A DNA stretch of 64,000 nucleotides, taken from NCBI GenBank assembly GCA_040753795.1, contig JBFMDX010000002.1, forward strand, positions 248,001 through 312,000, written 5' to 3'. Positions within the stretch are counted from its first letter, which is position 1. The number at the start of each line of letters is the position of its first letter. This stretch comes from Thermodesulfobacteriota bacterium (GTDB taxonomy: Bacteria > Desulfobacterota > Desulfobacteria > Desulfobacterales > Desulfosudaceae). This document shows, piece after piece, positions 3-51,169 of this stretch. The position numbers and the translations under genes were made by a program. A model generated the notes under the pieces. The model saw only the letters and a program-made list of their open reading frames with translations. It did not search any database and was not told the DNA's origin.

Positions 3-785
3 AAAATAGCGCCTGTTACAGATAACAGCCCGTTCTTTTTTAACTACGCAAAACTGTCCACCGTTTTCAAGCCGCCCGACCCTTCTTTCTTTCTATACTT
101 TGTCGGGCAGATGGTCCTTTACGGCGGATTTTTTGTTGTCCTGGCCTTCTCTTCCGTGTTCATCTTATGGCCGGCAGCGATTTACAGGAAACGAAAGGTG
201 CCCGTCAAAAACGCCCGCTTTATAATTTTATATTTTACAGGCATCGGCATCGCATTCATGCTGGTGGAAAACCTTTTTATCCAAAAATATTCGTTGTTTC
301 TGGGGCAACCGGTCTACTCACTTGCTCTTGTGTTGTTCTGCGCGCTGGTCTTCGCCGGCGCTGGAAGCTACTGGTCCGGGACGTTTCAAAAAACAAGACA
401 CTGGCGAGCGCTGGTATCATGGGGCCTGCCTGCCTTCCCGCTGGCAACCTTTTTCGGCTCAGACGCTGTTTTCCCGGCCCTGCTCCACACCGGGCTTTTT
501 ACACGTGTCATGGTTTCCGTAGCCATGCTGGCCCCATGCTGCTTCCTGATGGGCATGCTTTTTCCATGGGGCATCCGCAGAATGGAGAAACACGCGCCAC
601 AGGCTATCCCCTGGGCATGGGCGTTGAACAGTTATGCCTCGGTTTTAGGCGCCTTTCTTGCAGTGATAGGCGGCATCACGCTGGGGTTTGCCGCCACGTG
701 CCTGATCGCAGCGGTCCTTTACGCCTTCTGCGGCTTTATGGCGGATGAACAGAAACCGGGGCGGGATATACCTCCACCTCCATGA
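3..785 (+). CDS. Spermidine-synthase-like membrane protein, C-terminal part
   Basis: Open at the left edge; the reading frame runs from base 3 to the TGA at 783-785, so only about 260 C-terminal codons are visible. The first residues read PVTDNSPFFFNYA, which resembles the (A/V)TDDxPFFF motif that closes the spermine/spermidine synthase fold in large membrane-anchored family members. It is followed by several hydrophobic segments, roughly six to seven membrane helices, and a short Pro-rich tail. The enzyme domain itself lies outside the window, so the substrate cannot be judged; many such membrane proteins are not proven polyamine synthases. The last 50 bases overlap the 3' end of the convergent gene on the minus strand. 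An internal ATG at 111 exists but has no clear ribosome binding site and would cut off the conserved motif. Confidence 0.6.
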   Translation, partial: KIAPVTDNSPFFFNYAKLSTVFKPPDPSFFLYFVGQMVLYGGFFVVLAFSSVFILWPAAIYRKRKVPVKNARFIILYFTGIGIAFMLVENLFIQKYSLFLGQPVYSLALVLFCALVFAGAGSYWSGTFQKTRHWRALVSWGLPAFPLATFFGSDAVFPALLHTGLFTRVMVSVAMLAPCCFLMGMLFPWGIRRMEKHAPQAIPWAWALNSYASVLGAFLAVIGGITLGFAATCLIAAVLYAFCGFMADEQKPGRDIPPPP

Positions 786-3432: not shown

Positions 3433-3620
3433 CGCCACGGTCGGTGAAAAGTGACGGAAGACATTGATTGGTTTTTGTGCCCATATGTTTGCTTTATTAA
3501 GCCAGGGGCTTTACATACCATATATAATTAGCGATAATTTTGATTGTTTACAAACGATTTCTTGCAAAGCGCTTTTTTAAACCCATTAAAATATAAACCG
3601 AAAAGCCACTAAGGATAACC

Positions 3621-4739
3621 GTGAAAAAAATTATACCTCAAATAGAGCCCTGGATAGACGAACAAGAGACAAAAGCGGTCATGGAGGCGGTCCGATCCAC
3701 GTGGCTGACCGAGGCAAAAAGGACCGAATCGTTTGAAGCCCTGTTCCGGAAAAAAACCGGGGCAAAATACGCCCGCGCCTTCTGTAATGGAACGATGGCC
3801 CTTTTTGCCGCCTTGAAAGTCGCGGGCATAGGGAAAGGGGATGAAGTCATTCTGCCTGACCTGACCTTTATCGCTTCCAGCAACGCCGTTGTTCTCTCCG
3901 GAGCCAGACCGGTTCTGGCGGATGTCGATCAGACCTCTTTTACGCTTTCCCCGGACGGAATCCGGCAAAAGATAACCCGGCGGACCCGGGCCATCATGCC
4001 GGTTCATCTGTATGGGCAGGCGGCTGATATGGACGCGATCATGGAGATCGCGGGCGCACACCGGCTGGTTGTCATAGAGGATGCCGCGCAGGGCGTGGGC
4101 GTGAAATTCAACGGCCGGCATGTCGGCACCTTCGGGGATTTCGGCTGTTTCTCTTTTTACGGCAATAAAACGATAACGACCGGAGAAGGAGGGATGGTCA
4201 TAACCCAATCCTCCACGCTTGATGCCAGAATTTACGCCCTTAAGAATCACGGCCGCGGCCGAAGAGGAACGTTCATCCATGATGAGATCGGTTATAATTT
4301 CAGTTTTAACGAAATGGCCGCCGCCGTCGGCATCACGCAGTTGAAAAAATTGAATCTAATCATAAAAAAGAAGGCTGCCCTGCGGCGGGAATATATGAAA
4401 CAGTTATCAGACCTGAGTGAAATTGAGTTCACCCGGGCAGACGAGCGGTGCGCGCCCGTGCACTGGTTTATCAATATTCTCGTCGAAGACCCGGAATCAC
4501 TCCAGGCTTATCTCGGCCGGAAAGGCATCGGCACCCGGCGGTTCTTCTACCCCCTGCACCAACAGCCCTGTTATCGATTAAAAGGACGGTTCCCATGCAG
4601 TGAGTACGCCTATGCCCACGGCCTGTCCCTTCCTTCTTCAGCCAGGCTTGAACCCGAATCGGTACATCGGATTTGCAGCGAGATTCACCATTATTACCGG
4701 CACCATCCGGCACGGCGTAACCGCCCGAGGCGTTGCTGA
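3621..4739 (+). CDS. DegT/DnrJ/EryC1/StrS family PLP aminotransferase
   Basis: 372 residues, the normal length for the family. These enzymes usually transaminate a keto-sugar nucleotide to an amino-sugar, here probably for a surface polysaccharide. The PLP lysine is in YGNKTITTGEGGM (Lys about 183), with the upstream LPDLTFIASSNAV and VIEDAAQGVG segments typical of the fold; the Asp of EDAAQ would contact the PLP ring nitrogen. The start is GTG at 3621, preceded by AAGGA about 6 bases upstream. The stop abuts the stop of the convergent glycosyltransferase at 4740. Family assignment is secure; the exact sugar is not visible. Confidence 0.85.
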   Translation: MKKIIPQIEPWIDEQETKAVMEAVRSTWLTEAKRTESFEALFRKKTGAKYARAFCNGTMALFAALKVAGIGKGDEVILPDLTFIASSNAVVLSGARPVLADVDQTSFTLSPDGIRQKITRRTRAIMPVHLYGQAADMDAIMEIAGAHRLVVIEDAAQGVGVKFNGRHVGTFGDFGCFSFYGNKTITTGEGGMVITQSSTLDARIYALKNHGRGRRGTFIHDEIGYNFSFNEMAAAVGITQLKKLNLIIKKKAALRREYMKQLSDLSEIEFTRADERCAPVHWFINILVEDPESLQAYLGRKGIGTRRFFYPLHQQPCYRLKGRFPCSEYAYAHGLSLPSSARLEPESVHRICSEIHHYYRHHPARRNRPRRC

Positions 4740-5633
4740 TTATTCGTTTCCGGGCTTAAGGGAGTTTTTGATTTCCCAGGTGTGAACAATTTTACCGGCC
4801 AGGATCAGCGGGGTATAGAAGATAATGCCGGGCCTGAACCGCAACCACTGCTTCAGGATAAAGAGCGTCAGCAGGCAGGCCAGGGGAAGGATATAAAGAA
4901 AGGCCGGATAGTACGCCGTCGGGATCAGAAAAGAATAGTCCATCTTTAACCGTGAGCGGATTTGAACCATATATGTCCCCATGCTTTTCTGATGCCGGAA
5001 ATAGTCCCGGCAATTATCCCGGTCGAAATGATAAACCACGATATCGGATTGAAAATAAATTTTCTCCCCCAGCCGTCTGGCCCGGAAGCAGAACTCCGTG
5101 TCTTCGCCGCCGTTTGTCAGGGTTTCATCAAACAGGCCGATGCGGTCAAGCGCTGTCTTTTTGACGGACATGTTGTTCGAGGCGACATGAAGTTTTCTGA
5201 TGTAATAACTGCCGCTGAAGGGAACGGAGGCATACCAGGTGCAGAAGGCGTCGGCTTTGCCGAAAACGGTCCGGGATACGCCCTGGATACCGCCGCCGAT
5301 GATGGCCGCGCCCGTTTTTTCGTGCGCTTCAACATGCCGGGCGATCCAGTCTTTCTCGACATAGGCATCCGAATCGAGAAAGAGGATAATCTCTCCGCCG
5401 GCTTTCTTTGTCCCGGCATTTCGGCTGTACGATACCTTTCGGTTGGTTGAATTCCGGAAATAATGCAAACGCTGGTCGCCTATCTTCTTGATGATATCGG
5501 GCGTACCGTCACGGGAACAATCATCCACGACAATCAGTTCATAATCATCGTATTCGTTGGCCAGTATTGACGCCAGGCACTTTGCGATGGTCTGTTCGGC
5601 ATTATAAGCGGTAACGACGACGCTGACTTTCAT
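4740..5633 (-). CDS. Family 2 glycosyltransferase
   Basis: 297 residues. The N-terminus has the GT-A nucleotide-sugar binding pattern VSVVVTAYNAEQTI, then VDDCSRDGT and FLDSDAYVEKDW, whose DSD is the metal-binding DxD. GGEDTEFCFRARRLG is the usual ED...R acceptor-side motif of inverting GT2 enzymes. Residues ~235-290 hold one or two hydrophobic helices that probably tether it to the inner membrane. Its ATG lies one base after the stop of the upstream radical SAM gene (TGAAATG), so the two are probably translationally coupled. The sugar and acceptor cannot be told from the sequence. Confidence 0.85.
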   Translation of the reverse strand: MKVSVVVTAYNAEQTIAKCLASILANEYDDYELIVVDDCSRDGTPDIIKKIGDQRLHYFRNSTNRKVSYSRNAGTKKAGGEIILFLDSDAYVEKDWIARHVEAHEKTGAAIIGGGIQGVSRTVFGKADAFCTWYASVPFSGSYYIRKLHVASNNMSVKKTALDRIGLFDETLTNGGEDTEFCFRARRLGEKIYFQSDIVVYHFDRDNCRDYFRHQKSMGTYMVQIRSRLKMDYSFLIPTAYYPAFLYILPLACLLTLFILKQWLRFRPGIIFYTPLILAGKIVHTWEIKNSLKPGNE

Positions 5634-24903: not shown

Positions 24904-25003
24904 TTGTCGATAATAAGGGACAAACATATTTTTAGAATTGAAGCGCCGTGAACGGTCATTTTTTCTCTCCGGGATCGCCATGGAGGGGGCAGGCATCTTT
25001 TTG

Positions 25004-25174: not shown

Positions 25175-26698
25175 ATGGCTAAAAATCGAATTCTTTTCGT
25201 CTGTCTGCTGCTGGTTGTGCTGCTGGCGGTATGGACACTGCCCGGGCTGGCCCGGGATGCCCGGGACAAGGGGCAGAGCCAGTTTACGCTGGGCGTTTTC
25301 GCCTTTGAGAACGGGGACTATCAGGCCGCGGAAAATCATTTCCAGCAGGCCCTTTCCGCTGACGGCGGTAATCCATACTACAATTATTATATGGGAAAGG
25401 TGTGCCTGCAGAAAGAAGACTATTCCCGGGCCGCCGTCTATCTGGAAAAGGCCGCCCAGGCGGGCAAGGGGCTGCCCGATCTGGCCTATAACTGGGCCTA
25501 TGTCAATTACAAGCTGAATGATTATGCCGCCGCCGGAAAACTGTTTGAGGCCCTGACCGTATCCGAACCCGGCAACGTTTTGGCCCAATATTATGCCGGC
25601 CTGTCCCTCTATAAACAGGAGAAATACCAGCCGGCCCTGACGCATTTGAACCGGGCCGCCGGCCTGGAAACTCCCGTCCGTTATAATGCCGACTATCACG
25701 CCGGCCTCTGCGATATCAAGCTCGGTGATCTGGCCTCGGCCAGGGAGCGGCTGACCCGGGTTCAGCAGAATGCCGGGGAGAGTGAGTTGCGGCAGTCCGC
25801 CGCCGCTCTTCTGGAAAAAATTCCCCAGATGGAGCGGGAAGCGCGTCGGTATTCCCTGACGGCCAAACTGGGCTGGGAATATGACGACAATATCGCCCTG
25901 GAACCGATTGATGAGAATGATCTTTATGCGGATGAAGGCGATCATTTTTTCAGCGGCTATGTCTTCGGCACCTATGACCTCATCAAGACCGATACGCTGG
26001 TCATGGGGGCGGGATATGGCCAATACTGCACCCTTCACGACGATCTGGATGAATACGATTTAACCGCCAGTCTGTTTGATCTTTATGCCCGGTACCGGCT
26101 GCAAGATTACACCTTTGCCATTTCCTACAACCCCGATTACTACTGGCTGGATTCGGAAAGCTATCTGTGCCGGAACGAGATCACCACCACCATCAGCCGT
26201 GAATTCGACCGTTTTCTGACGGAATTTTCCTATAACCATCAGCGGGATAACAACATGTACGATTCCGATCAGGACGGTTATGCCAACGAAATATTTTTCA
26301 GGTGCCAGTACGCCCTGCCGGAGGAACGGGGAGCGCTTCGGGCCGGAGTCGGCTACGAAGTCAAATCCGCCGACAGTGACGACTACGACTATGATACCGT
26401 CTCCACCGAACTGGTGGCCACGTTCAGGACATGGTGGAAGGTTTACCTCGGCCTGTGCGGAGAATGCGAAGTCCAGCAGTATGACCATGCCAACTCTGTT
26501 TACGGCAAAAAACGGGATGATACCAAATATACCGGCAATGTTCTGCTGTCCCGGAATATCATCAACGAGATGATCGCGGCTCATATCGGCTACGAATACA
26601 CGAAAAACAATTCGAACATAGACGACGTTACCCGGTATAATGAAAGCTTCGAATACGAAAGCAACGCCGTCAAAGTTTTCTGCACATTCCAACTCTAA
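25175..26698 (+). CDS. TPR protein with C-terminal outer-membrane beta-barrel
   Basis: 507 residues from ATG 25175, which has GGGGGTGG just upstream; ATG 25160 and 25163 are alternatives. A signal peptide covers about residues 1-27 (FVCLLLVVLLAVWTLPGLA). Residues ~35-230 are tetratricopeptide repeats (FTLGVFAFENGDYQAAENHF, YNYYMGKVCLQKEDYSRAA, and so on). Residues ~235-507 alternate polar and aromatic residues (KLGWEYDDNIAL, SGYVFGTYDL, VMGAGYGQY, YRLQDYTFAISYNP) and end in VKVFCTFQL, as expected of a barrel. The layout recalls TPR-plus-barrel exporters such as Slam/DUF560 proteins, though no direct homology is claimed. It is first in a unit with a FecR-domain protein and a beta-helix protein. 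Confidence 0.7.
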   Translation: MAKNRILFVCLLLVVLLAVWTLPGLARDARDKGQSQFTLGVFAFENGDYQAAENHFQQALSADGGNPYYNYYMGKVCLQKEDYSRAAVYLEKAAQAGKGLPDLAYNWAYVNYKLNDYAAAGKLFEALTVSEPGNVLAQYYAGLSLYKQEKYQPALTHLNRAAGLETPVRYNADYHAGLCDIKLGDLASARERLTRVQQNAGESELRQSAAALLEKIPQMEREARRYSLTAKLGWEYDDNIALEPIDENDLYADEGDHFFSGYVFGTYDLIKTDTLVMGAGYGQYCTLHDDLDEYDLTASLFDLYARYRLQDYTFAISYNPDYYWLDSESYLCRNEITTTISREFDRFLTEFSYNHQRDNNMYDSDQDGYANEIFFRCQYALPEERGALRAGVGYEVKSADSDDYDYDTVSTELVATFRTWWKVYLGLCGECEVQQYDHANSVYGKKRDDTKYTGNVLLSRNIINEMIAAHIGYEYTKNNSNIDDVTRYNESFEYESNAVKVFCTFQL

Positions 26699-26717
26699 TA
26701 TTCAGGAGTTTACCGCC

Positions 26718-27701
26718 ATGACAGCTTTTAAAAATAATAAATATGCGTTCGTTTTTTTGCCGGTCCTGCTGGCGTTTATGGCCGTCATTCTGGTCAGTGA
26801 CGTCAGGCGCGCTTCGGCCGCCCAGGACAGCGTCATCCCGGAAAATCTAACCATTGAGCAGACCTATCGGCCGGGCCCCGGACAGAGCGTGGGGGTCGCC
26901 AGGCAGGCCCGTGGCAAAGTGGTGGTTCAGCATGAAAAGGAAGACCACGGCTACGCGGTCAGCAATGGAATGAACCTGTATAATGGGGACACCCTTTATA
27001 CCGCCCATGACGGGCACCTTGAGCTGGCCTTCAATGACGGCAGCAACCTGGTCCTGGCTGCCGACACCAAGCTGGCCATCGATAAAAGCATTTTCGATCC
27101 TGATTCCAAGAGCCGGCTCTCTTTTCTCAATATGGCGGCCGGGAAAGCCCGTTTCATGGTCAAGAAAATGTCCGACTACCATCATTCCCAGTTCAACGTC
27201 AAAACCGAGTCGTCCGTGGTGGGCGTCCGCGGGTCGGACTTTATCCTGGAAATCAGCCAGCAGGGCAAGAAGACGGTGATTACGGCCCTGGGCAACACGG
27301 TTCTGGAAATACTCGACCCGGCTCACCCCCTGGAGGAACCGGTCCTGGTCACCTCATTCCAGCAACTGGTGACCGTGCTGGGAGAAATCATGGGCAGGCC
27401 GGTGGATATTTCCGAGGAAGAAATCATGAAGCTCCTAAAGAAGCTGGACCTGTTGTCTTCAGGCGGTGGAGAGGGCGGCGGCCAGGGCGGTGAGGAAGGC
27501 GGTTATGTCCCGGACGGCGGCAGCATGGAATACCTGACGGGCGGAGATATTGACCAGTCGCAATTCAGGCCCGGACCCCGCAAGCCCTTTCCGGATGCCA
27601 TTGAAGACGCCGGACCGGACGAAGCCGGTGATGATCCGGACCGGGAGATGAGGCCCCGCCCGCCGGTTCCCCAACTGCCGGATGTGCCGTCCCATCCGTA
27701 A
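26718..27701 (+). CDS. FecR-domain periplasmic protein
   Basis: 327 residues from ATG 26718 with CAGGAG upstream, only 19 bases after the TPR/barrel gene. Residues ~1-37 are a signal peptide (hydrophobic FLPVLLAFMAVILV, then ASAA). Residues ~50-190 form a FecR-type beta fold: VGVARQARGKVVV, LYNGDTLYTAHDGHLELAF, KLAIDKSIFD, SSVVGVRGSDFIL. The GVRGTxF-like block is the usual FecR/LysM-associated signature. A helical segment near residues 200-245 is followed by a Gly-rich linker and a Pro-rich tail. FecR domains occur in anti-sigma sensors and in surface or periplasmic proteins; no cytoplasmic anti-sigma part is present, so a structural or envelope role is more likely. Confidence 0.75.
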   Translation: MTAFKNNKYAFVFLPVLLAFMAVILVSDVRRASAAQDSVIPENLTIEQTYRPGPGQSVGVARQARGKVVVQHEKEDHGYAVSNGMNLYNGDTLYTAHDGHLELAFNDGSNLVLAADTKLAIDKSIFDPDSKSRLSFLNMAAGKARFMVKKMSDYHHSQFNVKTESSVVGVRGSDFILEISQQGKKTVITALGNTVLEILDPAHPLEEPVLVTSFQQLVTVLGEIMGRPVDISEEEIMKLLKKLDLLSSGGGEGGGQGGEEGGYVPDGGSMEYLTGGDIDQSQFRPGPRKPFPDAIEDAGPDEAGDDPDREMRPRPPVPQLPDVPSHP

Positions 27702-27762
27702 ACAGGGGCGCCCCGGAAATGAACGGACCAATAAAATGATCAAATAGCAGGAGATGAACGTC

Positions 27763-30738
27763 ATGAAAACAACCCGACTGATTATATTAACCATAATTCT
27801 GGCCCTGCTGGCCGTGCCGGCCGTTCTGATGGCGGCGGCGGGACCGGGGGCCACTTCATACTATGTGGACATCGCCAACGGTGACGACGCCAATAATGGG
27901 TTGGCCGCCTATTCCCCGCTGAATGTTCCGCCTGACGGTCCCTGGAAGACCCTCCATTACGCGGCCAGCACGCTGGAGGACACGGACAACAATATCATTT
28001 ACGTGGCGGCGGGTGTTTACAGTGCACTCAATGGCGAACCCGATGATACCCTGCAATTTTTCATGTCCAACTCCTCCATTCTGGGCGCTCCCGGCGGCGG
28101 CACCATCATTGATGCCAGCGGAGATCTCGCCTTCTGGGATACCGCCGTTTATATGTACGCCTGCAACAACGTTCTGTTCAGTGATTTTGAGGTGCGCAAT
28201 GCCTCCCTTGACGGCATCTATGTCGAATTCGGGTCAGGCGTCGTTATCACCCGGTGCAATGTCCATGACAACTTGAGTTACGGTATTGTTTTGTATGAAT
28301 GCGACAGCGCCACCACGGTGAACCGGAACCGGATTTACAACAACCCGGACGGGATTGAGGTTTCGTCCTTCGGTTCTATTTTTTCTTCTTCTCCCTGGAT
28401 CGTCAACAACCTGATTTTCGGGCAATCGGAAAACATGGGCCGGGGGATTGTCGTCCAAGCCATGGGCTCCACGACCAACGTCTCTCCCACGATCTTCCAT
28501 AACACGATCGACCGGGGGATGAGTTACGGAATAGAGTTAAACAATCCGGATCTCGGGACTATGTCGCCGAGCATCCAGTACAACATCATCACCAACTGCG
28601 GCACGGGTATTTACGGTTATAACTTGTCCGGCACACTTGACCCCTACATTGATTATAATGATCTGTTCGGAAACGGCGTTGACTACAACGGCGTTGTTTC
28701 CGGGGCGAACGATCTGGCCCTGGATCCCCTGTATGTTGATCCCGCGTCGGGCACCAACTATCATTTAACGGCTGGTTCTCCCTGTATTGACGCGGCCGTC
28801 GGTTCGGAGAATCCCGAAGACCTGGACGGAACAACGCGGCCCCAGGGGATGGGGATCGATATCGGCTGTTACGAATATTACCTTTCCACTCCGGTGCCCC
28901 CCGTCTATATCCCCGGCATCACGGTGGTTCCTACCGAGGGCCTGGTTACCGGTGAAGACGGCTCCGGGGCCACCTTTACGGTGGTACTTAACAGCCCGCC
29001 GGCGGCCGACGTGACCATCCCCCTGTCCAGTTCGGATACCAGCGAAGGTACGGTTTCACCCGCTTCGCTGACGTTTACGCCGACCAACTGGTATACCCCC
29101 CGGATTGTCACCGTGAAAGGCGTTGACGACAGCTTAAACGACGGGGATATCCCCTACACGGTCGTTCTCGGCCCGGCGGTCAGTAACGCCAGCGATTATA
29201 ACGGGCTGGACGGAGCCGATGTCGGCGTCGTCAACAATGACAATGACGGCCCGGGCTTCCGGGTTACCCCGACCTCAGGCCTGATGACCTCCCGGTTCGG
29301 CGGCAGCGACACCTTCACGGTGGTGCTGACCTGTCAGCCCGCGGCGCCGGTGAATGTTTCCCTGTCCAGTTCCGACACCGGCGTCGGCATCGTGTCTCCC
29401 CAGGAGTTGATCTTTACTCCCGTCAACTGGAATGTTCCCCAGTCCGTTACCGTCACCGGTCAGGACAACGGGACCGCCGGGAATGTGCCCTATACGGTGA
29501 TCACTGCTCCGGGTGTCAGCGACGACCCGGACTATAACGGACTCGATCCCGATGACGTGGGCGTAACCAACATCGACAACCTGCCGGCGAGCCAGCCCCA
29601 GTATGTCTATCCGTTGCCTTCTCAACGGTTCGCTCCGGGCAATCCGGTTGCCCTGCGGGGCAGTGCTTTTTATGATCCTGACGGGGACAGCCACGTGGAA
29701 AGCTACTGGCGCATCGGGCTGGCGGGCCGGAACACCTTCGGCTGCCAGGATTACCCGGAATTTTTTGATCACCTTTCGTCCAGTGATCTGACGGAATATT
29801 CTCTGCCCGTCGATCTCCTGGCTACCGGCGTGGCGTATCAATGGGTCGTCGCTTACCGGGATGCGGGCAGCGGTGTTTTCTCCTGGTCCGACAGGGATGA
29901 GCAGGAAAACAACGTGTTTATTATCGGCCAGGAGGAGACGGTGGAGCTGCCGCCCATTCCGCCGGGGAACCGGGCCCGGGATTTTCAGATGCGGTCTTTC
30001 CATCATTATATCAGCGGGGATGCAAGCGCCGCGGGCGTGATCGGCGACGACCTGGTCGGCGGGTACAATACCCGTTATTATCGTATCGGCACCTATGACA
30101 CCGAGAACAACGGCGCCTATCAGGAATATCCCTCATTCAGCGTTTATCCCGGCCAGGCCGCCTGGTTTCTGGCCAGAAACGGCCTGACCGTCGATCTTAC
30201 GGGCGTGCCGGTGACCGTAACCGAGGACGTGGATGTGCCGCTGAAATTTTATGACGATACCGATAACGGCTGGAACATGATCGGCCCTCCCAACGACCGG
30301 AATTACCGCTGGGAGGACGTGGAGGTGGTGGTCTACGGCGGCGGCGGCAACTGCGATATCGTCTCCGGCCCCACCCGGATCGGCGATCTGGGCGACTCCA
30401 ACCCTTATATTGATCTGCGACTGTGGGAATGGGTCGACGGCGCCTATGTCGAGGCCGGCATGATGATGTCGGGCTACGGCTACTGGGTGAAGGCCAGGCA
30501 GAAAGGGGTGGTCCTGCGGTTCCCCGCCAGCTCTCAGGCCACGCTGAAAAATCCGGGCGTGCTTCTGGCCGTGGCCATGGACAAAATCAGGGAGGAGGCC
30601 CGGGCGCTGGTTTCGCCGGCGGAAGCGCTGGCCGATGCCGATAAGGATTCCCCGCCCCGGCCCATGGACGTGATCGAGGATGAAGGAAAAGAGGGCTCGT
30701 CTTCCGGAGGCACCTGCTTTATCAACACCCTGGAATAA
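27763..30738 (+). CDS. Large secreted beta-helix protein with Ig-like repeats and Gly-Cys-Phe-Ile tail
   Basis: 991 residues. AGGAG at 27749-27753 favours ATG 27763 over ATG 27754. The signal peptide is LIILTIILALLAVPAVLMAAA. Residues ~25-370 form a parallel right-handed beta-helix (SDFEVRNASLDGIYV, NNLIFGQ, PTIFHNTIDRG, PSIQYNIITNCGTGIYG). Residues ~385-490 and ~490-605 are two tandem ~105-residue domains sharing FTVVL...SSSDT...VSP...FTP.NW and PYTV...DYNGLD...DVGV.N.DN. A further fold of uncertain type follows to about residue 940. The C-terminus is Glu/Lys-rich, then SSSGGTCFINTLE, like a shortened Gly-rich Cys-Phe-Ile C-terminal box known from deltaproteobacterial surface proteins. It is probably the surface or secreted product of this three-gene unit. 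Confidence 0.75.
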   Translation: MKTTRLIILTIILALLAVPAVLMAAAGPGATSYYVDIANGDDANNGLAAYSPLNVPPDGPWKTLHYAASTLEDTDNNIIYVAAGVYSALNGEPDDTLQFFMSNSSILGAPGGGTIIDASGDLAFWDTAVYMYACNNVLFSDFEVRNASLDGIYVEFGSGVVITRCNVHDNLSYGIVLYECDSATTVNRNRIYNNPDGIEVSSFGSIFSSSPWIVNNLIFGQSENMGRGIVVQAMGSTTNVSPTIFHNTIDRGMSYGIELNNPDLGTMSPSIQYNIITNCGTGIYGYNLSGTLDPYIDYNDLFGNGVDYNGVVSGANDLALDPLYVDPASGTNYHLTAGSPCIDAAVGSENPEDLDGTTRPQGMGIDIGCYEYYLSTPVPPVYIPGITVVPTEGLVTGEDGSGATFTVVLNSPPAADVTIPLSSSDTSEGTVSPASLTFTPTNWYTPRIVTVKGVDDSLNDGDIPYTVVLGPAVSNASDYNGLDGADVGVVNNDNDGPGFRVTPTSGLMTSRFGGSDTFTVVLTCQPAAPVNVSLSSSDTGVGIVSPQELIFTPVNWNVPQSVTVTGQDNGTAGNVPYTVITAPGVSDDPDYNGLDPDDVGVTNIDNLPASQPQYVYPLPSQRFAPGNPVALRGSAFYDPDGDSHVESYWRIGLAGRNTFGCQDYPEFFDHLSSSDLTEYSLPVDLLATGVAYQWVVAYRDAGSGVFSWSDRDEQENNVFIIGQEETVELPPIPPGNRARDFQMRSFHHYISGDASAAGVIGDDLVGGYNTRYYRIGTYDTENNGAYQEYPSFSVYPGQAAWFLARNGLTVDLTGVPVTVTEDVDVPLKFYDDTDNGWNMIGPPNDRNYRWEDVEVVVYGGGGNCDIVSGPTRIGDLGDSNPYIDLRLWEWVDGAYVEAGMMMSGYGYWVKARQKGVVLRFPASSQATLKNPGVLLAVAMDKIREEARALVSPAEALADADKDSPPRPMDVIEDEGKEGSSSGGTCFINTLE

Positions 30739-30759
30739 TCAATTCGGCGCTTATTGTTT

Positions 30760-30799
30760 CATGGCGGGGGAGGGCTTGTTTTCCCCCGCCATGTTTTTT
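30760..30799 (+). terminator. Strong intrinsic terminator
   Basis: Perfect 12-base arms CATGGCGGGGGA (30760-30771) and TCCCCCGCCATG (30782-30793), a 10-base loop, then six T. It closes the TPR/FecR/beta-helix unit and separates it from asnB. Confidence 0.9.
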
Positions 30800-44455: not shown

Positions 44456-47278
44456 TCAGAAGGTGTACCCGATGGAGAAATGAAACCGGCCGGGGCTTTC
44501 CCCTTCCTTGCGGTCAAGCTTTGAGCCGTAGTAGATGCTCAACGGACCCACCGGCGTCCGGTAGCCCAGGCCGACGCCAACGGAAGACCGGGTATCCGTA
44601 TAGGCCGGTTCGGCCAACCGGCTCAGTTTGCCGATATCGTAAAACAGGACCAGGCTGAGTTTTTTTCCCGCGGCCATTCTGGCTTCAACGGTTCCGGACA
44701 GAGACAGGCGCCCGCCGACAGGATCATTCCGGTCGTCTACCACCAGCTCGTTTTCATTGAATCCGCGAACCGAGGAGATGCCGCCGAGGAAAAAAAGCTG
44801 GTCATCGGAAACGTCCGCTGAGCCGCTCTGGGGGTCGATGTAGCCGGCCCTGCCGGTCAGGGCCAGGGTGACCGTCTGGAAAAGGGGCCGGTAGCAGCGA
44901 AGGTCGCCCCGGTACTTGATAAAATCATCCGGGCTGGTGCTGATCCCCCGGGAAAAGGTTACATTGCCGGAAACCATTGCCCCCCTGGTCGGCATCATCT
45001 TGTTGTCCCGGCTGTCGTAAAGAACGCCGGGGGTTACGGCCAGAGCGCTGCGCTTCTCGTAAGTTTCGTTTTCATCTTCTTCGATCAAAGACAGCGGGTA
45101 CGAATCCCTTTGCTCCGCGTTCATATTGATGCCGGTGGACAGGTCCTCGGACCATTCCCGGTCGACGCCAAAAGAGACCCCTTGTGTCCGGACGCCGAAA
45201 TTCTGGTTGAAGTCCTCTCTTTTTTCCGTGGACAGGTTCAGGACCGACGACAGGCGGGTGGAAAAAAACCGCGGTGAGCGGATGCCCGCATCGCCGCGGT
45301 AGCCGGTTTCCCGGAGCTCCCAGGCGGCGTAACCGTCACGGTTCGTTCCCAGCAGGTTATGGTCACCCGCCGACACTTTTCCAAAGGCGCCCTGATCCGA
45401 GGTGTAGCCGCCGGCCAGTTCGATGAAAAACGGATTTTTTTCAACCGTTTCAATAAACAGGTCAACCCGGTCGTCCTTTTCCGCCAGGCCGACGGGGGTG
45501 AAGTTGACCGCCCGGAATATGTCCAGATCCCGGAGATTCCGCTGGCTTTCGGCCATCCGGGTCAGGGAAAAGGGCTCCCTTTCCGTCATTTTCATCTCCT
45601 GCTTCACCACGCTTTCCCGGGTGCGGAGATTGCCGGACACATATATCGCCCCCATGGACACCGCCGGGCCTTCGTCCACCTGATAGACGATCGCCGCGGT
45701 CCGGCGGTTTTCGTCCATGACGATTGACGAATCCACGCGTACGTGGGGACGGCCTTGTTCCGAAATCAGGGTCGCCAGATCCGCCTTGTCTTTTTGCGCC
45801 GATTTTTCGTCAAACAGTTCGTCAGGCTTCAATCGCAGGGCTTTCAGCGCCCGGTCTTCCGTTACGGCGGCCAGCCCCTCAAAACGGACGGACGACACCC
45901 GGACGGTATCCCCCTCGTCGATGCTGATGGTGATGTCCGCCTCAGTGCCGGCTTCGTTGAAGGTCACGGCCTGCTCTACCCGGGCGTGGGCGTATCCCCT
46001 TTTCCGGTACAATTGCTCAATGGCCCGGATATCCTCCTCCAGTTTCTGCGGCACATAGACCCATGTCTTTTTCCACCATGGCGGACGGGAGCGGATCCGG
46101 CGTTCTATGGCCCGGGTCGGGATGCGGGCGTTTCCCCGGATGGTCAGCGAGCGGACAACCGTTCCCGGGCCTTCCTCGATCACGAACCGGACCTGTTTCG
46201 GTGCTCCGGACTCCTCCGCCCGGGCGCCTTCCTCCACGCGCACATCCGCGTTCAGATAGCCGGCGTTCCAGTAGCGGGCTTTCATGTCCTTCACGCTTTT
46301 GCGGATTCCCATGCCGCCCCGGTTTCCCCGGGAATAGACGGCCGCTTCCTTTTTGAGTGCCCGGCCTGAAAAGCGGTTATTCCCGGAAAAAGCGATCTCA
46401 TACCGGGGGCCTTCGTCAACGAGAACCACGATGGCCACGCGACTCTGTCGGTCGTCCGTATTCAGGGCATAGGTGATGGCGACTTCGGCGAACCCTTTTT
46501 TCCGATAGAACTCGGTCAGCGTTTCCATGTCCCTGTCCAGATCGTGTTGATTGAACCGGGCCCGGCCCAGGTGTAAAAGAGAGGCGCGCCAGGTTTTCAT
46601 GCGGCTTTTCAGTCGCGTATCCGAAAAGGCGCGGTTGCCGGATATGTGAATCGACCGGACGCGCCGCCATGGGCCCGGCGTTATATCTATCTTCAACACC
46701 ACCGTGTTATCATCGCGATCCTCGCGGGCGAAGATGTCGATGGCCGGGGAAGAAAATCCCCTGGTTTTAAACAGCTCCGCGATAATGTCTTTCTGCGCCT
46801 CCATTTCAACGGGACTGAAGTTTTTCCCGGGATAAACGGACAGGCTGCGGAGCACATCCTGCGTAAAGAGACCGCTCCACCCTTTGATATGGATGTCGAT
46901 ATCCCGAATGACGCGGCTGACCGACAGATGGAAACGCAGGGCCACGGCTTCCCCTTCCGGCGTTGCCTCGGCCCGGGCCCCGGCAAAACGGCCGCAGGCC
47001 TTCAGATGTTCCAGGGAACGATCGAGAAGCGCCGGGGAAAAAGAGGCGCCGGGGGGCAGGTTGATCAGCGTTGACGCCATCTCGATCCAGCCGGTGGTGT
47101 CCCCTGGCGGACCGGCGACTTCGATATCCAGGCGGGAAACCGGCCGGCCGGACAGCCGGTTCCAGTCGACGCCGGCGGCGGAAGCTTCCGGGCCGGTGTC
47201 CGCGGCTGCCCGTCCGCCCGGCAAAACAACGGCCGCGATCATCATATAAAGCAGCAGCGTTCTTACTGTTACCATCAT
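44456..47278 (-). CDS. Omp85 (BamA/TamA) family outer-membrane protein with seven POTRA domains
   Basis: 940 residues. A signal peptide (LLLYMMIAAVVLPGGRAAA) is followed by seven POTRA-like repeats over residues ~36-600. Their first strands read VSRLDIEV, VIRDIDIHI, RVRSIHISGN, YEIAFSGNN, VVRSLTIRGN, RVSSVRFEG and MGAIYVSGN. The C-terminal barrel (about 610-940) ends in RFHFSIGYTF, the aromatic terminus required for outer-membrane insertion, and has the SSVRGFNENEL lid-lock-like (VRGF) motif. It starts 27 bases after tamB, so it is best read as the TamA-like partner, but TamA usually has three POTRA domains and BamA five. It may act in outer-membrane protein or lipid transfer. Confidence 0.85.
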   Translation of the reverse strand: MMVTVRTLLLYMMIAAVVLPGGRAAADTGPEASAAGVDWNRLSGRPVSRLDIEVAGPPGDTTGWIEMASTLINLPPGASFSPALLDRSLEHLKACGRFAGARAEATPEGEAVALRFHLSVSRVIRDIDIHIKGWSGLFTQDVLRSLSVYPGKNFSPVEMEAQKDIIAELFKTRGFSSPAIDIFAREDRDDNTVVLKIDITPGPWRRVRSIHISGNRAFSDTRLKSRMKTWRASLLHLGRARFNQHDLDRDMETLTEFYRKKGFAEVAITYALNTDDRQSRVAIVVLVDEGPRYEIAFSGNNRFSGRALKKEAAVYSRGNRGGMGIRKSVKDMKARYWNAGYLNADVRVEEGARAEESGAPKQVRFVIEEGPGTVVRSLTIRGNARIPTRAIERRIRSRPPWWKKTWVYVPQKLEEDIRAIEQLYRKRGYAHARVEQAVTFNEAGTEADITISIDEGDTVRVSSVRFEGLAAVTEDRALKALRLKPDELFDEKSAQKDKADLATLISEQGRPHVRVDSSIVMDENRRTAAIVYQVDEGPAVSMGAIYVSGNLRTRESVVKQEMKMTEREPFSLTRMAESQRNLRDLDIFRAVNFTPVGLAEKDDRVDLFIETVEKNPFFIELAGGYTSDQGAFGKVSAGDHNLLGTNRDGYAAWELRETGYRGDAGIRSPRFFSTRLSSVLNLSTEKREDFNQNFGVRTQGVSFGVDREWSEDLSTGINMNAEQRDSYPLSLIEEDENETYEKRSALAVTPGVLYDSRDNKMMPTRGAMVSGNVTFSRGISTSPDDFIKYRGDLRCYRPLFQTVTLALTGRAGYIDPQSGSADVSDDQLFFLGGISSVRGFNENELVVDDRNDPVGGRLSLSGTVEARMAAGKKLSLVLFYDIGKLSRLAEPAYTDTRSSVGVGLGYRTPVGPLSIYYGSKLDRKEGESPGRFHFSIGYTF

Positions 47279-47305
47279 TTTATTTAAAATCCCGACGAAG
47301 GGTTG

Positions 47306-50300
47306 CTACCGGAACTCATACCGAAAAATCAGTTCGCCGCCGAAAACGCCCTGGGTGTTCTGAAATCCCGAAACGGTCATGGTTTCCGTCAAACGATAAT
47401 CGGTGGCGCTTTCCTGAACCAGACCGTACTGGCCGGACTCAACGGAATACTTGAGGGTCAATCGGTCGGAAACCTTCGACCCCACGGTGATGCGGCTCCG
47501 GCCGTTTGTCTGCTCCTCGGTTGTTTCTTCCGTCGCCCGGCTTTCTTCGGCGGTGGACACCTCGACGATATCCAGGCCCGTTGCCTTTCTGATGTCGCCG
47601 GACATGGTTCCGGCCAGGAATGCCGCCAGCGTCTCCGCCTGGTTTTCCGAGCTGCCGGCGCCGGCGGTCATCTCACGGGTCGGCATGCCGAACACCAGCA
47701 GGGAAAGAATGTCTCCCGGTTCCTCGTCAGGATCAGAGGTCAGCGTGATTTCCAGCTGATCCGGTGTTCCGGTGGCTTTCAGGTTGATTTTCCAATGTTT
47801 GATGGCGGTATCGGCCGTAAGGTCGATGCGGGGTTCAGTTTTATAAGGGTTGGCAAAGATGACGGCGCCTTTATCCACCTTGAAGGGGGTCCGTTGAAAG
47901 AGGATCTCCCCTGATTCAATTCTGGCTTCCCCCATAATAACGGGATGGTCCAGGTTCCCTTTGACGGCCAGGTCGGGCAAAATCTCCAGCAGACCGATGT
48001 TGTTGTCGACCTTGAGCGGAAGCCGGTGCCTGAGGGCCAGGTCCAGGGACAGCCCCCGCAGAAAGGACGGCAACCGGAAGACAATATCCGGCCCGGGCGC
48101 CTTTTTCTTTACAAACGGAGACTGGAATATGTCCGTTTGAGTGACCAGTTCCGTATCCTGGAAATACACGCCGTCCACCAGCACCACCTCTCCGCGGACA
48201 ACCGCCTGCCCGGCATCTCTGACCAGGGCCAGATTCGCGTCCAGTTTCAGGTCCAGTTTATCCGGGACAACCACCGGTAGTGATTCGGCCGTCAGCCGGA
48301 TATCCATGGCGGCCGGCCGCCAACCTTCCAGGGAAGCCATGCCGGTAACCCGGAAGCGGCCGGTTCCCAGCAGACCGGTGATTTCATTGATCGTAATGTT
48401 TTCCTGCTGAAAGCGGACGGTGCCGCTGATGTCATGAACCCTGCCGGACAGGTCCGGCAGGGTCAGGCCGATGTTGGACAGTTTCATCTCGCCGGTCACG
48501 GCCGGCCGGTCCAGGGTTCCGGTGACCCGGGCGGCCAGGTTTATCCGGCCGGTCATGTCCTGGATGTCCGTTGCCATTATTTCGGCCATGGAGAAGGGGG
48601 CCCGGCAGTTAATGTCCAGGGCAACCGACTGGTCAAAGCCCATCCGGCCGCTGATATTCACTGTTCCCTCGTCGGCTACGGTGAGGTTGATCCCCGGAAC
48701 ATGAATGATGCCGCCTTCGCAATACAGGCGGAAAGGTCCGGCCCGGCACCAGTCGCGCCGGCCATCGGACAGGACGACCTGATCGATTTCAGCCGAAGCC
48801 TTCATGGCCGGAATGTCGCTCAGCCTGCCTGCGGCCTCCAGCCGGCCGGTGACCGTTCCGCTCAAGTCCGGCCGGTCGATCATCGCCAGCCAGGGAGAAA
48901 GCGGTGCCGCTCCGGCATCGCACCGGGCGGTAAAAGCCAGGTCCGTCAGGTCCAGGGTACCGGTCAGGACGATCCCGTCACCGTGAATGTCGGCCCGGAT
49001 CAGGCGGCCGTCAAACCGGAAATCAGGCGCCATGTTATTTAAAGCGTTGCCGGCGATGGCCAGTTGACGGATTTGCATGTCTCCCCAAAGGGCCGGAATT
49101 TCCCCCCAGTCGCCGTTTCCGGATAGGGAAAAGCGCGCTGTTCCGTCAACCGGCCCATAATCCTGGATCGCCCGGATCCGGCCGAGAGCAAGCGCCTCTG
49201 ACGCGGCTTCGAACCGATAGGTCCGCTCCTTCAGGGACAGGACGCCGGAACCCCGCAGGATCTGGTCACCGGGAAAGAAGGCCTCAACGGAACGGATATC
49301 GACGGTATCGCCCTTCAGGGCCGCGGAAAGATTGATCCGGTCGGCCCGGGCCAGGCCGATATCCGGTTCAACAGCCTCCAGAGACATCTCTCCGGTCGGT
49401 TTTTTAAACGTGCCCCCGATGTTGCCGGACAAGGTCACTTCGCCTTTCAGCCTGTCCGGCAGAATGTCTTCCAGGCGGATTCTGCCTGGGGCTACCGTCA
49501 GGTCCATGGCCGGGTCGGAAGCCGCTGTGCCGGTCCGCTCATCAACAAGATGGATGACGCCCCGGACCTGGCTATAGGACGCTCCCCGGCGGATATCCAT
49601 TTGTTCAACGGTCAGGAGCCCCCGGGACAGAACCAGCCGGCCGTCCACATCACCGACGGTAAAAGGGGCGATGGACAGGCCGGCTCCGTGGACTAGTCCC
49701 GTGGCCGTCATTTCAGGGAAAGCACCCGACACATCGGCCGTCATTTCCAGGCCGCCGCTGACCCGGTCGTATCCGGCCAGGGCGGCCAGGCCGCTGATGT
49801 CGTCGGCGGTCAGTCTGAACCGGCCGGCGACATCACTTGTTGCCAGGACATAGTGGCCGGAGCCGGTCAGGCGCAGCCCGGCTGTTTCAGCTGAAATCTG
49901 ATCCAGACGGAGAATCCCGTCCCGGCATTGTCCGGCCAACTCAATAGCCAGGGGCTCAGTCGGCTTATGGTTTTCCGGTCGGAAATCAGTTACGTCAATT
50001 TTTCCGGCCAGATCGGCGCTGAGCCGGTGCGGCGATATCCCCCGGCCGGTAATGGTGATGTCCGATCCGATCCGGCCCTTCATCCGGGGGGTGATGTTCA
50101 GGAGGCGGTTCAGGTCCGCTCCGGCCGCGCGGATTTGAAGCGTATAGGCCACCCGGTCAACGTCATATTTCCAGGCCGTTAGGCCACCCGGGAAAACGCC
50201 GATTAAATCCAGGTTTCCGGCAGCGGTTATCTGTCCCGGCCCCGGGACAGTGGCGCGGGCATCCACGGCGAGCGCCTGAATGTTTCCGTCCAGGCGGCAG

Positions 50301-51169
50301 ACCAGTTCATCCAGGACGACCGGCCCGACCACGGGCTGCCGGCAGGTCAGTTCGGCGTGAATCTCCGGATTTCCCGGATCGCCCCTGATATCGGCCTGAA
50401 GGATTGTCTGTCCGGAAAGATCACGGGTGGTGTTGAGCAGGGGCTTGAGCGCCTCCAGACCGGCCGCGCCTTTCACGGACAGGTCCAGTTCCGGGCGACC
50501 GAATACCTGCCGGATGTCTCCGCTGACGTCAAGCCCGTCAGGCGGCTGGCCGATTTCAATCCGCAGTCCCTTTATGTCTTTTTCATTCAGCGTTCCCGCC
50601 AGGCGTATGAAGGCAAGAGACAGTGCCCGCGGGTCGGTTGACGAATCAGGGCGGGGAGAATAAGGTGCGATTTCCAGGTTGGTGATTTCCGCGGATTCAA
50701 CGATCAGTGTCCGGGGCATGAACAGACGGAGCAGGCTGTTACCGGGCAGGGACTGGATTGTGTCCAAAAGCTTCCGCATGGCCGGAGGCAGGCTGTTTTT
50801 CACGTCGGTCGGTAATCGAACCGAGACATGATTCAGGCGCAGGGATTTTATTTTCAGTGTTTGTTTCAAAAGAGACGCCGGACGCCAATCGAGACGGACG
50901 TGATCGATAGCCAGAATCGGTTGGCTCCGGCTGGAAAAAAGGGCCAGTTTTTCGATTTCCAGGGCCTGCCCCGTTATCGACAGACGGTGATCGCCAATGA
51001 CCACGCGACCGGCCATGTGGCGGCTGAGTCCCTGCTCCAGCCAATGCCGGGCTACGCCGGTATTGACCATGGCCGAGACAATAAAAAGACACCCCGGCAG
51101 TATGATCAGCAGGGCCGCAACGACACCGGCCGCCCGGTTGCGGGCGTTTATTTTGTTTATTGTTTTCAA
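47306..51169 (-). CDS. tamB: TamB-like translocation and assembly module / AsmA-superfamily bridge protein
   Basis: 1287 residues. One N-terminal membrane helix (AAGVVAALLIILPGCLFIVSAMV) is followed by a very long beta-rich periplasmic region of repeated amphipathic strands (for example LDISGDIRQ, LKGEVTLSGNIGG). The C-terminal ~350 residues form the DUF490/TamB domain, with ILSLLVFGMPTREM, LAGTMSGDIRKATGLDIVEVS and a final VGSKVSDRLTLKYSVESG...FRYEFR. Such proteins span the periplasm as a hydrophobic groove, moving lipid between membranes or aiding barrel assembly. It is upstream of and probably co-transcribed with the Omp85 gene. No CDS-disrupting lesion was seen. Confidence 0.82.
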   Translation of the reverse strand: MKTINKINARNRAAGVVAALLIILPGCLFIVSAMVNTGVARHWLEQGLSRHMAGRVVIGDHRLSITGQALEIEKLALFSSRSQPILAIDHVRLDWRPASLLKQTLKIKSLRLNHVSVRLPTDVKNSLPPAMRKLLDTIQSLPGNSLLRLFMPRTLIVESAEITNLEIAPYSPRPDSSTDPRALSLAFIRLAGTLNEKDIKGLRIEIGQPPDGLDVSGDIRQVFGRPELDLSVKGAAGLEALKPLLNTTRDLSGQTILQADIRGDPGNPEIHAELTCRQPVVGPVVLDELVCRLDGNIQALAVDARATVPGPGQITAAGNLDLIGVFPGGLTAWKYDVDRVAYTLQIRAAGADLNRLLNITPRMKGRIGSDITITGRGISPHRLSADLAGKIDVTDFRPENHKPTEPLAIELAGQCRDGILRLDQISAETAGLRLTGSGHYVLATSDVAGRFRLTADDISGLAALAGYDRVSGGLEMTADVSGAFPEMTATGLVHGAGLSIAPFTVGDVDGRLVLSRGLLTVEQMDIRRGASYSQVRGVIHLVDERTGTAASDPAMDLTVAPGRIRLEDILPDRLKGEVTLSGNIGGTFKKPTGEMSLEAVEPDIGLARADRINLSAALKGDTVDIRSVEAFFPGDQILRGSGVLSLKERTYRFEAASEALALGRIRAIQDYGPVDGTARFSLSGNGDWGEIPALWGDMQIRQLAIAGNALNNMAPDFRFDGRLIRADIHGDGIVLTGTLDLTDLAFTARCDAGAAPLSPWLAMIDRPDLSGTVTGRLEAAGRLSDIPAMKASAEIDQVVLSDGRRDWCRAGPFRLYCEGGIIHVPGINLTVADEGTVNISGRMGFDQSVALDINCRAPFSMAEIMATDIQDMTGRINLAARVTGTLDRPAVTGEMKLSNIGLTLPDLSGRVHDISGTVRFQQENITINEITGLLGTGRFRVTGMASLEGWRPAAMDIRLTAESLPVVVPDKLDLKLDANLALVRDAGQAVVRGEVVLVDGVYFQDTELVTQTDIFQSPFVKKKAPGPDIVFRLPSFLRGLSLDLALRHRLPLKVDNNIGLLEILPDLAVKGNLDHPVIMGEARIESGEILFQRTPFKVDKGAVIFANPYKTEPRIDLTADTAIKHWKINLKATGTPDQLEITLTSDPDEEPGDILSLLVFGMPTREMTAGAGSSENQAETLAAFLAGTMSGDIRKATGLDIVEVSTAEESRATEETTEEQTNGRSRITVGSKVSDRLTLKYSVESGQYGLVQESATDYRLTETMTVSGFQNTQGVFGGELIFRYEFR

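Follow-up and report, generated by a model that had tools for sequence, protein, structure and literature searches.

A three-gene unit of barrel, FecR and beta-helix proteins

The DNA analysed here (the window) is a stretch of 64,000 nucleotides from a Desulfosudaceae member of the Thermodesulfobacteriota (assembly GCA_040753795.1, contig JBFMDX010000002.1, positions 248,001 to 312,000 of the forward strand). We focus on three consecutive genes at window positions 25175 to 30738, which we call T (gene 1, a protein with tetratricopeptide repeats (TPRs) and a barrel), F (gene 2, a FecR protein) and M (gene 3, a beta-helix protein), and on the question of whether they form a surface-export unit. 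The unit has the following features.

25175..26698, + strand: T gene, 507 aa, with signal peptide, TPRs and a predicted 14-strand outer-membrane barrel
25160, + strand: possible alternative in-frame ATG start of T, giving 512 aa; the start at 25175 has a GGGGG tract close upstream
25262..25843, + strand: TPR domain of T (residues about 35-228 counted from 25160; Pfam TPR_2/TPR_16, helices in the model)
25850..26692, + strand: barrel of T (residues 231-511 counted from 25160; 14 model strands)
26718..27701, + strand: F gene, 327 aa, with signal peptide (by eye), FecR domain and a Gly/Pro-rich tail
26988..27302, + strand: FecR domain of F (PF04773, 2.6e-14)
27763..30738, + strand: M gene, 991 aa, with signal peptide (by eye), beta-helix, M domain and Cys-Phe-Ile (CFI) box
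28135..28545, + strand: right-handed beta-helix in M (PF13229, 5.2e-15)
28744..28878, + strand: choice-of-anchor Q domain in M (NF041518, 35.3 bits, cut-off 25)
29977..30534, + strand: M domain, about 186 aa, common to proteins beside other T-F pairs
30697..30732, + strand: terminal CFI box, GGTCFINTLE (NF041763)
30760..30793, + strand: intrinsic terminator after M, with a 15-pair stem, a 4-base loop and a T run

All three genes lie on the + strand, with gaps of 19 bases (T-F) and 61 bases (F-M), as an initial annotation made from the sequence had listed them. The same annotation described a periplasmic-type FecR gene, a 991-aa beta-helix protein ending GGTCFINTLE and a strong terminator; the FecR and beta-helix matches and the end of the open reading frame (ORF) agree with it, and of 13 listed terminator-like sites, against 8.4 expected by chance, the one after M has the longest stem. 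Its single promoter ahead of T was not confirmed: a sigma-70 scan of the + strand from 24000 to the T start lists none and a looser search gives only a site at 24904, counted as 8/12. By eye, each of the three proteins begins with an ordinary signal peptide that lacks a clear lipobox, and M contains two similar repeats.

T is a TPR-barrel protein related at the family level to the T11SS

An AlphaFold2 model of T based on a 35-sequence alignment (mean predicted local distance difference test score, pLDDT, 91.8) has TPR helices up to residue 228 and 14 strands over residues 231-511. The barrel in the C-terminal half, which had been a reader's impression with structure prediction proposed as its check, is thus borne out. 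Folding from the single sequence left the barrel half at pLDDT <50, and the usable model came from the alignment-based job.

The initial annotation had likened T to Slam-type exporters of the type XI secretion system (T11SS). SlipAM (PF04575), the family of the T11SS/Slam (DUF560) barrel, scores above its cut-off in 36 of 297 genomes. By coordinates, nineteen of these places are T sites that we fetched, eight of them because of the SlipAM search itself (G195, G240, G072, G293, G207, G230, G261 and G145, all on the outer branch of the T tree described below); the other eleven are G224, G152, G097, G060, G177, G215, G140, G286, G124, G022 and G167. At locus L203, T reaches 63.6 bits (2.9e-17). 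The window T scores 19.3 bits against a cut-off of 22 and is the sole SlipAM match at E <=0.01 in its genome; other T sites under the cut-off include G047, G056, G062, G275 and G273:C49. Among 35 T proteins scanned singly at E <=1, TPR_Slam matches 29 and BBP2_2 matches 21; SlipAM matches at most 19, because it is not among the 25 families shown in that scan. Since SlipAM is passed in many relatives and missed by the window T, the relation to the T11SS holds at the level of the family; for the window T itself it is indirect. To that extent the Slam likeness stands.

The architecture points the same way. The T11SS barrel is described as 14-stranded with TPRs (PMC8406197; here and below, statements taken from papers refer to the portions of them used here), and T has this layout, with TPRs at its N-terminus. 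Further likenesses are the SlipAM-passing relatives, the cargo-like genes that adjoin T, and one branch in which FecR is joined to a TbpB_B_D domain. The differences are that the window T falls below the SlipAM cut-off, that its family usually has a FecR partner, and that the window M carries the M domain and a CFI box instead of a TbpB-type barrel, with no lipobox seen by eye. T differs from the TpsB proteins of two-partner secretion in having TPRs and no POTRA row in the Pfam scan.

Comparisons of structure bring in another possibility, namely that T belongs with exopolysaccharide porins such as BcsC, PgaA and PelB and works with accessory proteins. BcsC is the top Foldseek match of T and PelB the next one spanning both parts (TM-score by query 0.33-0.44); the BBP2_2 matches noted above, with a best E of 6.3e-7, and locus L087 of the window genome, where a FecR gene is followed by a BBP2_2 barrel and by genes of polysaccharide-export type (these last by eye), are also consistent with it. 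However, T has 14 strands whereas the PgaA cluster is 16-stranded (PMC8406197), the genes next to the unit are ComEC-like upstream (by eye) and asparagine synthase downstream, with no polysaccharide synthase directly beside T, and SlipAM is passed by a wide margin in L203. We consider the porin explanation highly improbable. In a VIA-align comparison, the nearest structure to the T barrel is CymA (Z 22.9, root-mean-square deviation 2.9, 264 aligned), followed by OmpG (Z 21.0); the rows include no T11SS structure, and we take no evidence against a T11SS relation from this. What the T barrel passes is not told by the fold alone.

We also note the arrangement of L087 itself (156-5559, contig C23 of the window's own genome), which encodes in a row a FecR protein, a BBP2_2 barrel, and export-type and Wzc-like proteins (the last two by eye).

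FecR is the most constant partner of T

Among 395 genomes from the phylum, 44 contain a match to T at E <=1e-10; in some cases the match covers just the TPRs. We counted 81 T sites, comprising 39 from the search with the window protein (window included), 20 from a family profile and 22 more; a site cut by a contig end was scored as lacking a partner. L166, a Desulfobacteraceae locus from a metagenome-assembled genome with the same genes as L189, was omitted from the counts, and no T was counted among the first sets at L045, L066 and L077, the first two of which have a longer antisense ORF in T's place. A search of plasmids with P0001 gave no match.

At 32 of the 39 sites a same-strand gene for a FecR protein lies no more than 3 kb from T (31 downstream), as it does at 17 of the 20 newly fetched profile-found sites (all downstream) and at 68 of the 81 sites overall. 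The 44 genomes hold 93 FecR matches, or 2.1 each, so that by our arithmetic a T-FecR adjacency would arise by chance at one or two sites per thousand. FecR is the most constant partner of T, and the best reading is that F is a dedicated periplasmic partner. In the co-occurrence check proposed in the initial annotation, FecR is thus found beside T at 68 of the 81 sites and M at 15. The three-family combination exists elsewhere and is restricted, with M near T at 10 of the 39 sites of the first set and at none of the 20 of the second. L069 and L075 are scored as without M, the M domain lying in a giant protein past the fetched stretch (as seen in L109 and L110).

The FecR proteins at T sites differ widely in size. 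Some are short, many of these with Pro-rich tails; others are larger chains, reaching 2885 residues, with FecR at the N-terminal end. The earlier proposal that FecR serves as a spacer or chaperone is incomplete in this light, as FecR is the most constant partner and, in two branches, often part of the same chain as the putative cargo. F also differs from the FecR of FecR/FecI surface signalling, in that it consists of a signal peptide followed by the FecR domain (topology by eye), without a cytoplasmic anti-sigma part or inner-membrane helix. A LapA-type retention module (NF033682) matches P0002 weakly at residues 61-133 (4.6e-6, 26.9 bits, below the cut-off of 50).

The sub-threshold retention-module match is present also in the FecR proteins of L049 and L057. 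We further note that several short FecR proteins have Pro-rich C-terminal tails such as LPDVPSHP/LPDMPSQP (window 27660-27701 and short-F relatives), and that in several M proteins the Cys box is preceded by PPxPM or PPAPPG.

Candidate cargo types differ between branches of the T tree

A quick tree of 81 T rows (80 sites, with one short-T site omitted, and one Shinella protein, which has a long branch and is called TbpB-type on a sub-threshold match) places the different kinds of neighbouring protein in different branches. The TbpB-type sites fall in an outer branch with 11 rows (support 99), and all 12 rows whose long FecR proteins share a C-terminal domain that we call A3 belong to a branch with 37 (support 99). 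The window falls in a branch of 33 rows (support 91, below the starred level) together with all 13 rows that combine M with a short F; the FecR proteins here are short, and at sites with M it is encoded as a protein of its own. Every branch contains rows of other kinds too.

In the outer branch, the operons run from T to a FecR protein with a C-terminal TbpB_B_D domain, mostly followed by a CHASE2 cyclase. TbpB-type domains are the mark of classic T11SS cargo (PMC8406197, PMC12282271). Nine downstream proteins of this branch were scanned (L203-L211), and FecR was found in eight. TbpB_B_D is above its cut-off in L203 (1.7e-8), L204, L208 and L211, just under it in L206, L207 and L210, and absent in L209, where an assembly gap cuts the protein, and in L205. 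The L205 protein has no FecR match, and its tail matches the profile of the other TbpB-type tails at 1.5e-12. An apparent FecR-CHASE2 fusion at L209 spans a stretch of N in the assembly and was dismissed as an artefact.

The A3 tails are of a different kind. A Pfam scan of 10 of the 12 gave no credible match and none to TbpB, the A3 profile found nothing credible among solved structures, and profile comparisons of A3 with A4 and of A2, the M-domain profile, with A3 gave no relation. A4 denotes two alphaproteobacterial FecR tails, which have 19 matches to solved structures at E 0.0053-0.19, all of them fHbp/lipoprotein or GNA2132 chains. This result is suggestive but weak; the Pfam TbpB_B_D matches of the A4 tails are below the cut-off, and these tails do not match the profile of Desulfobacterota TbpB-type tails at 1e-3.

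The strength of the association between cargo type and branch varies. None of 500 label shuffles was as low as the observed arrangement for the TbpB-type sites, which are strongly clustered. Confinement to a branch gives Fisher p values of 2.6e-5 for the A3-type rows and 1.6e-5 for the M sites, in a test chosen after the tree was seen. Short-F sites have M in 13 of 39 cases and long-F sites in 0 of 24 (Fisher p 0.00096, ignoring kinship; p 0.0011 without L209, which is otherwise kept among the 24). As FecR often shares a chain with a large passenger in other branches, the window's F and M may be two halves of a split FecR-passenger protein; G396 and L198, described below, speak against this.

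The M domain and its Cys-Phe-Ile box

Neither Pfam nor NCBIfam matches the M-domain stretch of the window at E <=1, and the M-domain profile finds nothing credible among solved structures. Built from seven seeds at T loci, this profile (A2) returned 24 rows at E <1e-20 in the 395 genomes. Fourteen of the 24 adjoin T, counting L107, where only the TPR part of T is on the contig; among the 17 non-seed rows the number is 7. Four further rows, at three loci (L098, L099 and L106), adjoin CHASE2 cyclases. T, F and M follow one another in the same order, with a terminal Cys-Phe box, also at L188, where the M gene is interrupted, and at L189, L191 and L197.

The CFI tail of the window protein scores 12.0 bits in a protein scan and 16.5 bits in a genome scan against NF041763 (sort_motif_CFI, cut-off 15.9). 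The genome scan also gives matches in 10 of 14 control genomes, one of them over the cut-off, so that the motif is weak when taken alone. Its occurrence with the M domain is beyond chance: a box of Gly followed by Cys-[FYW]-[IVLM] is found in the last 150 residues of 20 of 36 C-terminally complete M-domain ORFs versus 11 of 993 other ORFs. The box singled out in the initial annotation is therefore present and recurrent in relatives of M, while its motif score by itself carries little. It takes three forms. In loci of the window's family and order (L188, L189, L191, L197, L198, L200 and L202) it lies at the very C-terminus; in L101, L103, L108, L109 and L110 a hydrophobic stretch and then basic residues come after the Cys box; and in L052 and L100 it appears as the NCBIfam CFI_box_CTERM domain.

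The second of these forms bears on an explanation in which the type II secretion system (T2SS) exports M, and T and F are merely operon companions. The sorting of MYXO-CTERM proteins involves an invariant Cys together with a CPBP protease and the T2SS (PMC11980579). The window genome has GspD over its cut-off at two places and one CPBP-family protease gene (a common family, present in 11 of the 14 controls), and M proteins are found apart from T. The window's own box, however, ends five residues past Cys-Phe and lacks the hydrophobic and basic parts. In addition, M sites are limited to one T branch except for L198, and no M was found at long-FecR sites. We hold export by the T2SS to be somewhat doubtful. 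The likeness to the MYXO-CTERM/myxosortase system lies in the Cys motif near the C-terminus and in the Cys, hydrophobic and basic form of some M relatives (PMC11980579); apart from the form of the window tail, the systems differ in that no cognate protease was identified for the CFI box, no search having been aimed at a CFI-specific protease. In a literature search on 'CFI-box' and 'choice-of-anchor', CFI terms are absent among the matches listed.

A terminal GGCFISALK also ends a choice-of-anchor U protein at L110:3816-5489, near a giant M protein that follows a T-F pair on the same contig.

CHASE2 cyclases and comparison with NsrA

Of the 59 T sites from the phylum, 17 have a CHASE2 cyclase gene no more than 8 kb away. 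The figure is restricted to these sites, because L203-L211 were chosen after their SlipAM and CHASE2 coordinates had been seen. CHASE2 is found in 236 of 395 genomes, with five matches in the window genome; the window itself has no called CHASE2 gene. Plasmids of Shinella and Paracoccus encode a T-like TPR protein, a FecR protein and a CHASE2 cyclase in a row.

A related combination is known from Sinorhizobium meliloti, where nsrA overlaps cyaK by one base and both NsrA and CyaK are reported to be required for signal 1 (PMC7529298). The NsrA of strain 1021 agrees with the annotated NsrA at 1198 of 1200 positions and carries FecR (2.3e-15) and TPRs ahead of a barrel stretch, which is placed at residues 600-1200 (PMC7529298). 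NsrA thus resembles the window unit in its FecR, TPR and barrel modules, which are divided between two genes in the window and joined in one chain in NsrA, and in the CHASE2 neighbours of related loci. It differs in being one 1200-aa chain whose barrel stretch spans about 600 aa, versus about 280 in T, and the window unit has no adjacent cyclase. We considered NsrA as a fused T-F ('Rosetta stone') protein and rejected this: its barrel is about twice the length of T's and does not match the T-barrel profile; it matches OMP_b-brl_3 only below threshold and has no credible relative among solved structures. Moreover, the window's own genome encodes a separate 1274-residue relative of NsrA (L086:1637-7497, contig C9; 30% identity over its length, 4e-150) that adjoins a CHASE2 cyclase. 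Given the different barrel and this separate relative, NsrA is a parallel and not a fused T-F.

These observations raise the alternative that T-F is an NsrA-like outer-membrane receptor, in which the barrel or M would sense the outside, FecR would relay to a CHASE2 cyclase encoded elsewhere, and T would export nothing. The linkage of T sites to CHASE2 genes, the plasmid arrays, the five CHASE2 matches in the window genome and the pairing of NsrA with CyaK (PMC7529298) are all consistent with such a receptor. Against it are the lack of a called CHASE2 gene in the window and the distinct barrel of NsrA with its own relative L086. A FecR gene near cyaD1 in S. meliloti, smc02177, is moreover dispensable for plant signal perception (PMC5498481), and FecR proteins with TbpB-type tails beside SlipAM barrels point to export. 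We judge a receptor that exports nothing unlikely; reception as such can be compatible with export by T. Another comparison is the BiofilmReg operon of Burkholderia, which likewise pairs a periplasmic FecR protein (LysM-FecR) with a CHASE2 sensor (PMC5192318). There, the sensor is a histidine kinase and not a cyclase, and the main text of that paper mentions neither TPRs nor the outer membrane. The words FecR and TPR are similarly absent from the main text of two later NsrA-related papers (PMC7529298, PMC13001267).

Two side observations concern the cyclase loci. At L088:5741-10383 (contig C8 of the window's own genome), a FecR protein, a SpoIID-TPR protein and a CHASE2 cyclase are encoded in a row without a T gene. 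The CHASE2 cyclases of L049, L057, L061, L063, L099 and L106 share a similar tail after the cyclase domain, roughly PPxxWDGxFxxxxK, which likewise ends those of L203, L204, L206, L207 and L209-L211.

A proposed export role for T in a FecR-partnered T11SS branch

The reading that we favour is that T exports M, with F as a periplasmic partner, in a FecR-partnered branch of the T11SS (Slam/DUF560); we put the chances of this at about even. It builds on direct observations, namely the three genes, the barrel model, the SlipAM relation of the family, the T-F pairing, the T-F-M units in relatives and the cargo types that follow branches. From these we infer a sequence of steps. T would be the outer-membrane protein of the branch, and M would enter the periplasm via Sec. 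The C-terminal M domain would then be recognised by T, in the role that the TbpB-type barrel has in classic T11SS cargo, and M would pass through the T barrel or be assembled at it. The C-terminal Cys-Phe-Ile box would help to hold M at the surface. FecR would probably stay in the periplasm at the TPRs of T, and it may report to a CHASE2 cyclase where such a gene adjoins.

Several observations weigh against this proposal. On the side of T, the window protein falls under the SlipAM cut-off and shows no SlipAM row when scanned alone against Pfam; at E <=1, SlipAM reaches at most as many of the 35 relatives as stated above, versus the larger number for BBP2_2, and the T of L203 passes DUF2860 as well (31.9 bits, cut-off 22.9). 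On the side of the cargo, neither F nor M of the window has a TbpB-type match in Pfam at E up to 1, and a profile comparison of enlarged M, A3 and TbpB-type sets found no relation among them. M is near T at only a minority of sites, and M proteins exist away from it. In G396, a genome of the same family, the best M-protein match is about 1.1 Mb from T; at L198 M stands beside an outer-branch T with no FecR called. The label shuffles were as low as observed in 15 of 500 cases for M plus short F, a modest clustering, and in 53 of 500 for the A3-type rows, which are not clearly clustered. Finally, ancestry alone could line up cargo with T branch.

A broader version of the proposal, which we regard as unlikely, would make export and signalling one machine. 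The barrel would export a passenger while FecR, as a plug at the TPRs, would inform the CHASE2 cyclase of export or of ligand binding, in parallel to NsrA-CyaK. On this view the M domain and the A3 tail would join the TbpB-type barrel as two new domains for cargo recognition, and in the window's branch FecR and the passenger would be divided between two proteins.

Only members of cluster 1 of the T11SS are reported as verified, and cluster 3 as rarely found near the known cargo barrel (PMC12282271). The words FecR and CHASE2 are absent from the main text of that paper, as is FecR from the main text of PMC8406197. A literature search for 'surface lipoprotein assembly modifier' with FecR found no paper, and the portions used of the literature on CHASE2 with FecR describe no unit of the T-F-M type. 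Most T11SS branches are without known cargo, and the unit supplies a named partner (FecR) and two candidate cargo domains. Operons that combine a SlipAM-type barrel, a FecR protein and a CHASE2 cyclase also make a possible coupling of export to cyclic-nucleotide signalling testable. What we regard as new is a FecR-partnered T11SS branch with alternative cargo domains, the T11SS as a kind being known.

Elsewhere in the window, an Omp85/POTRA protein adjoins a TamB protein on the - strand (44456-51169), forming a TamA-TamB-like pair about 14 kb from the unit.

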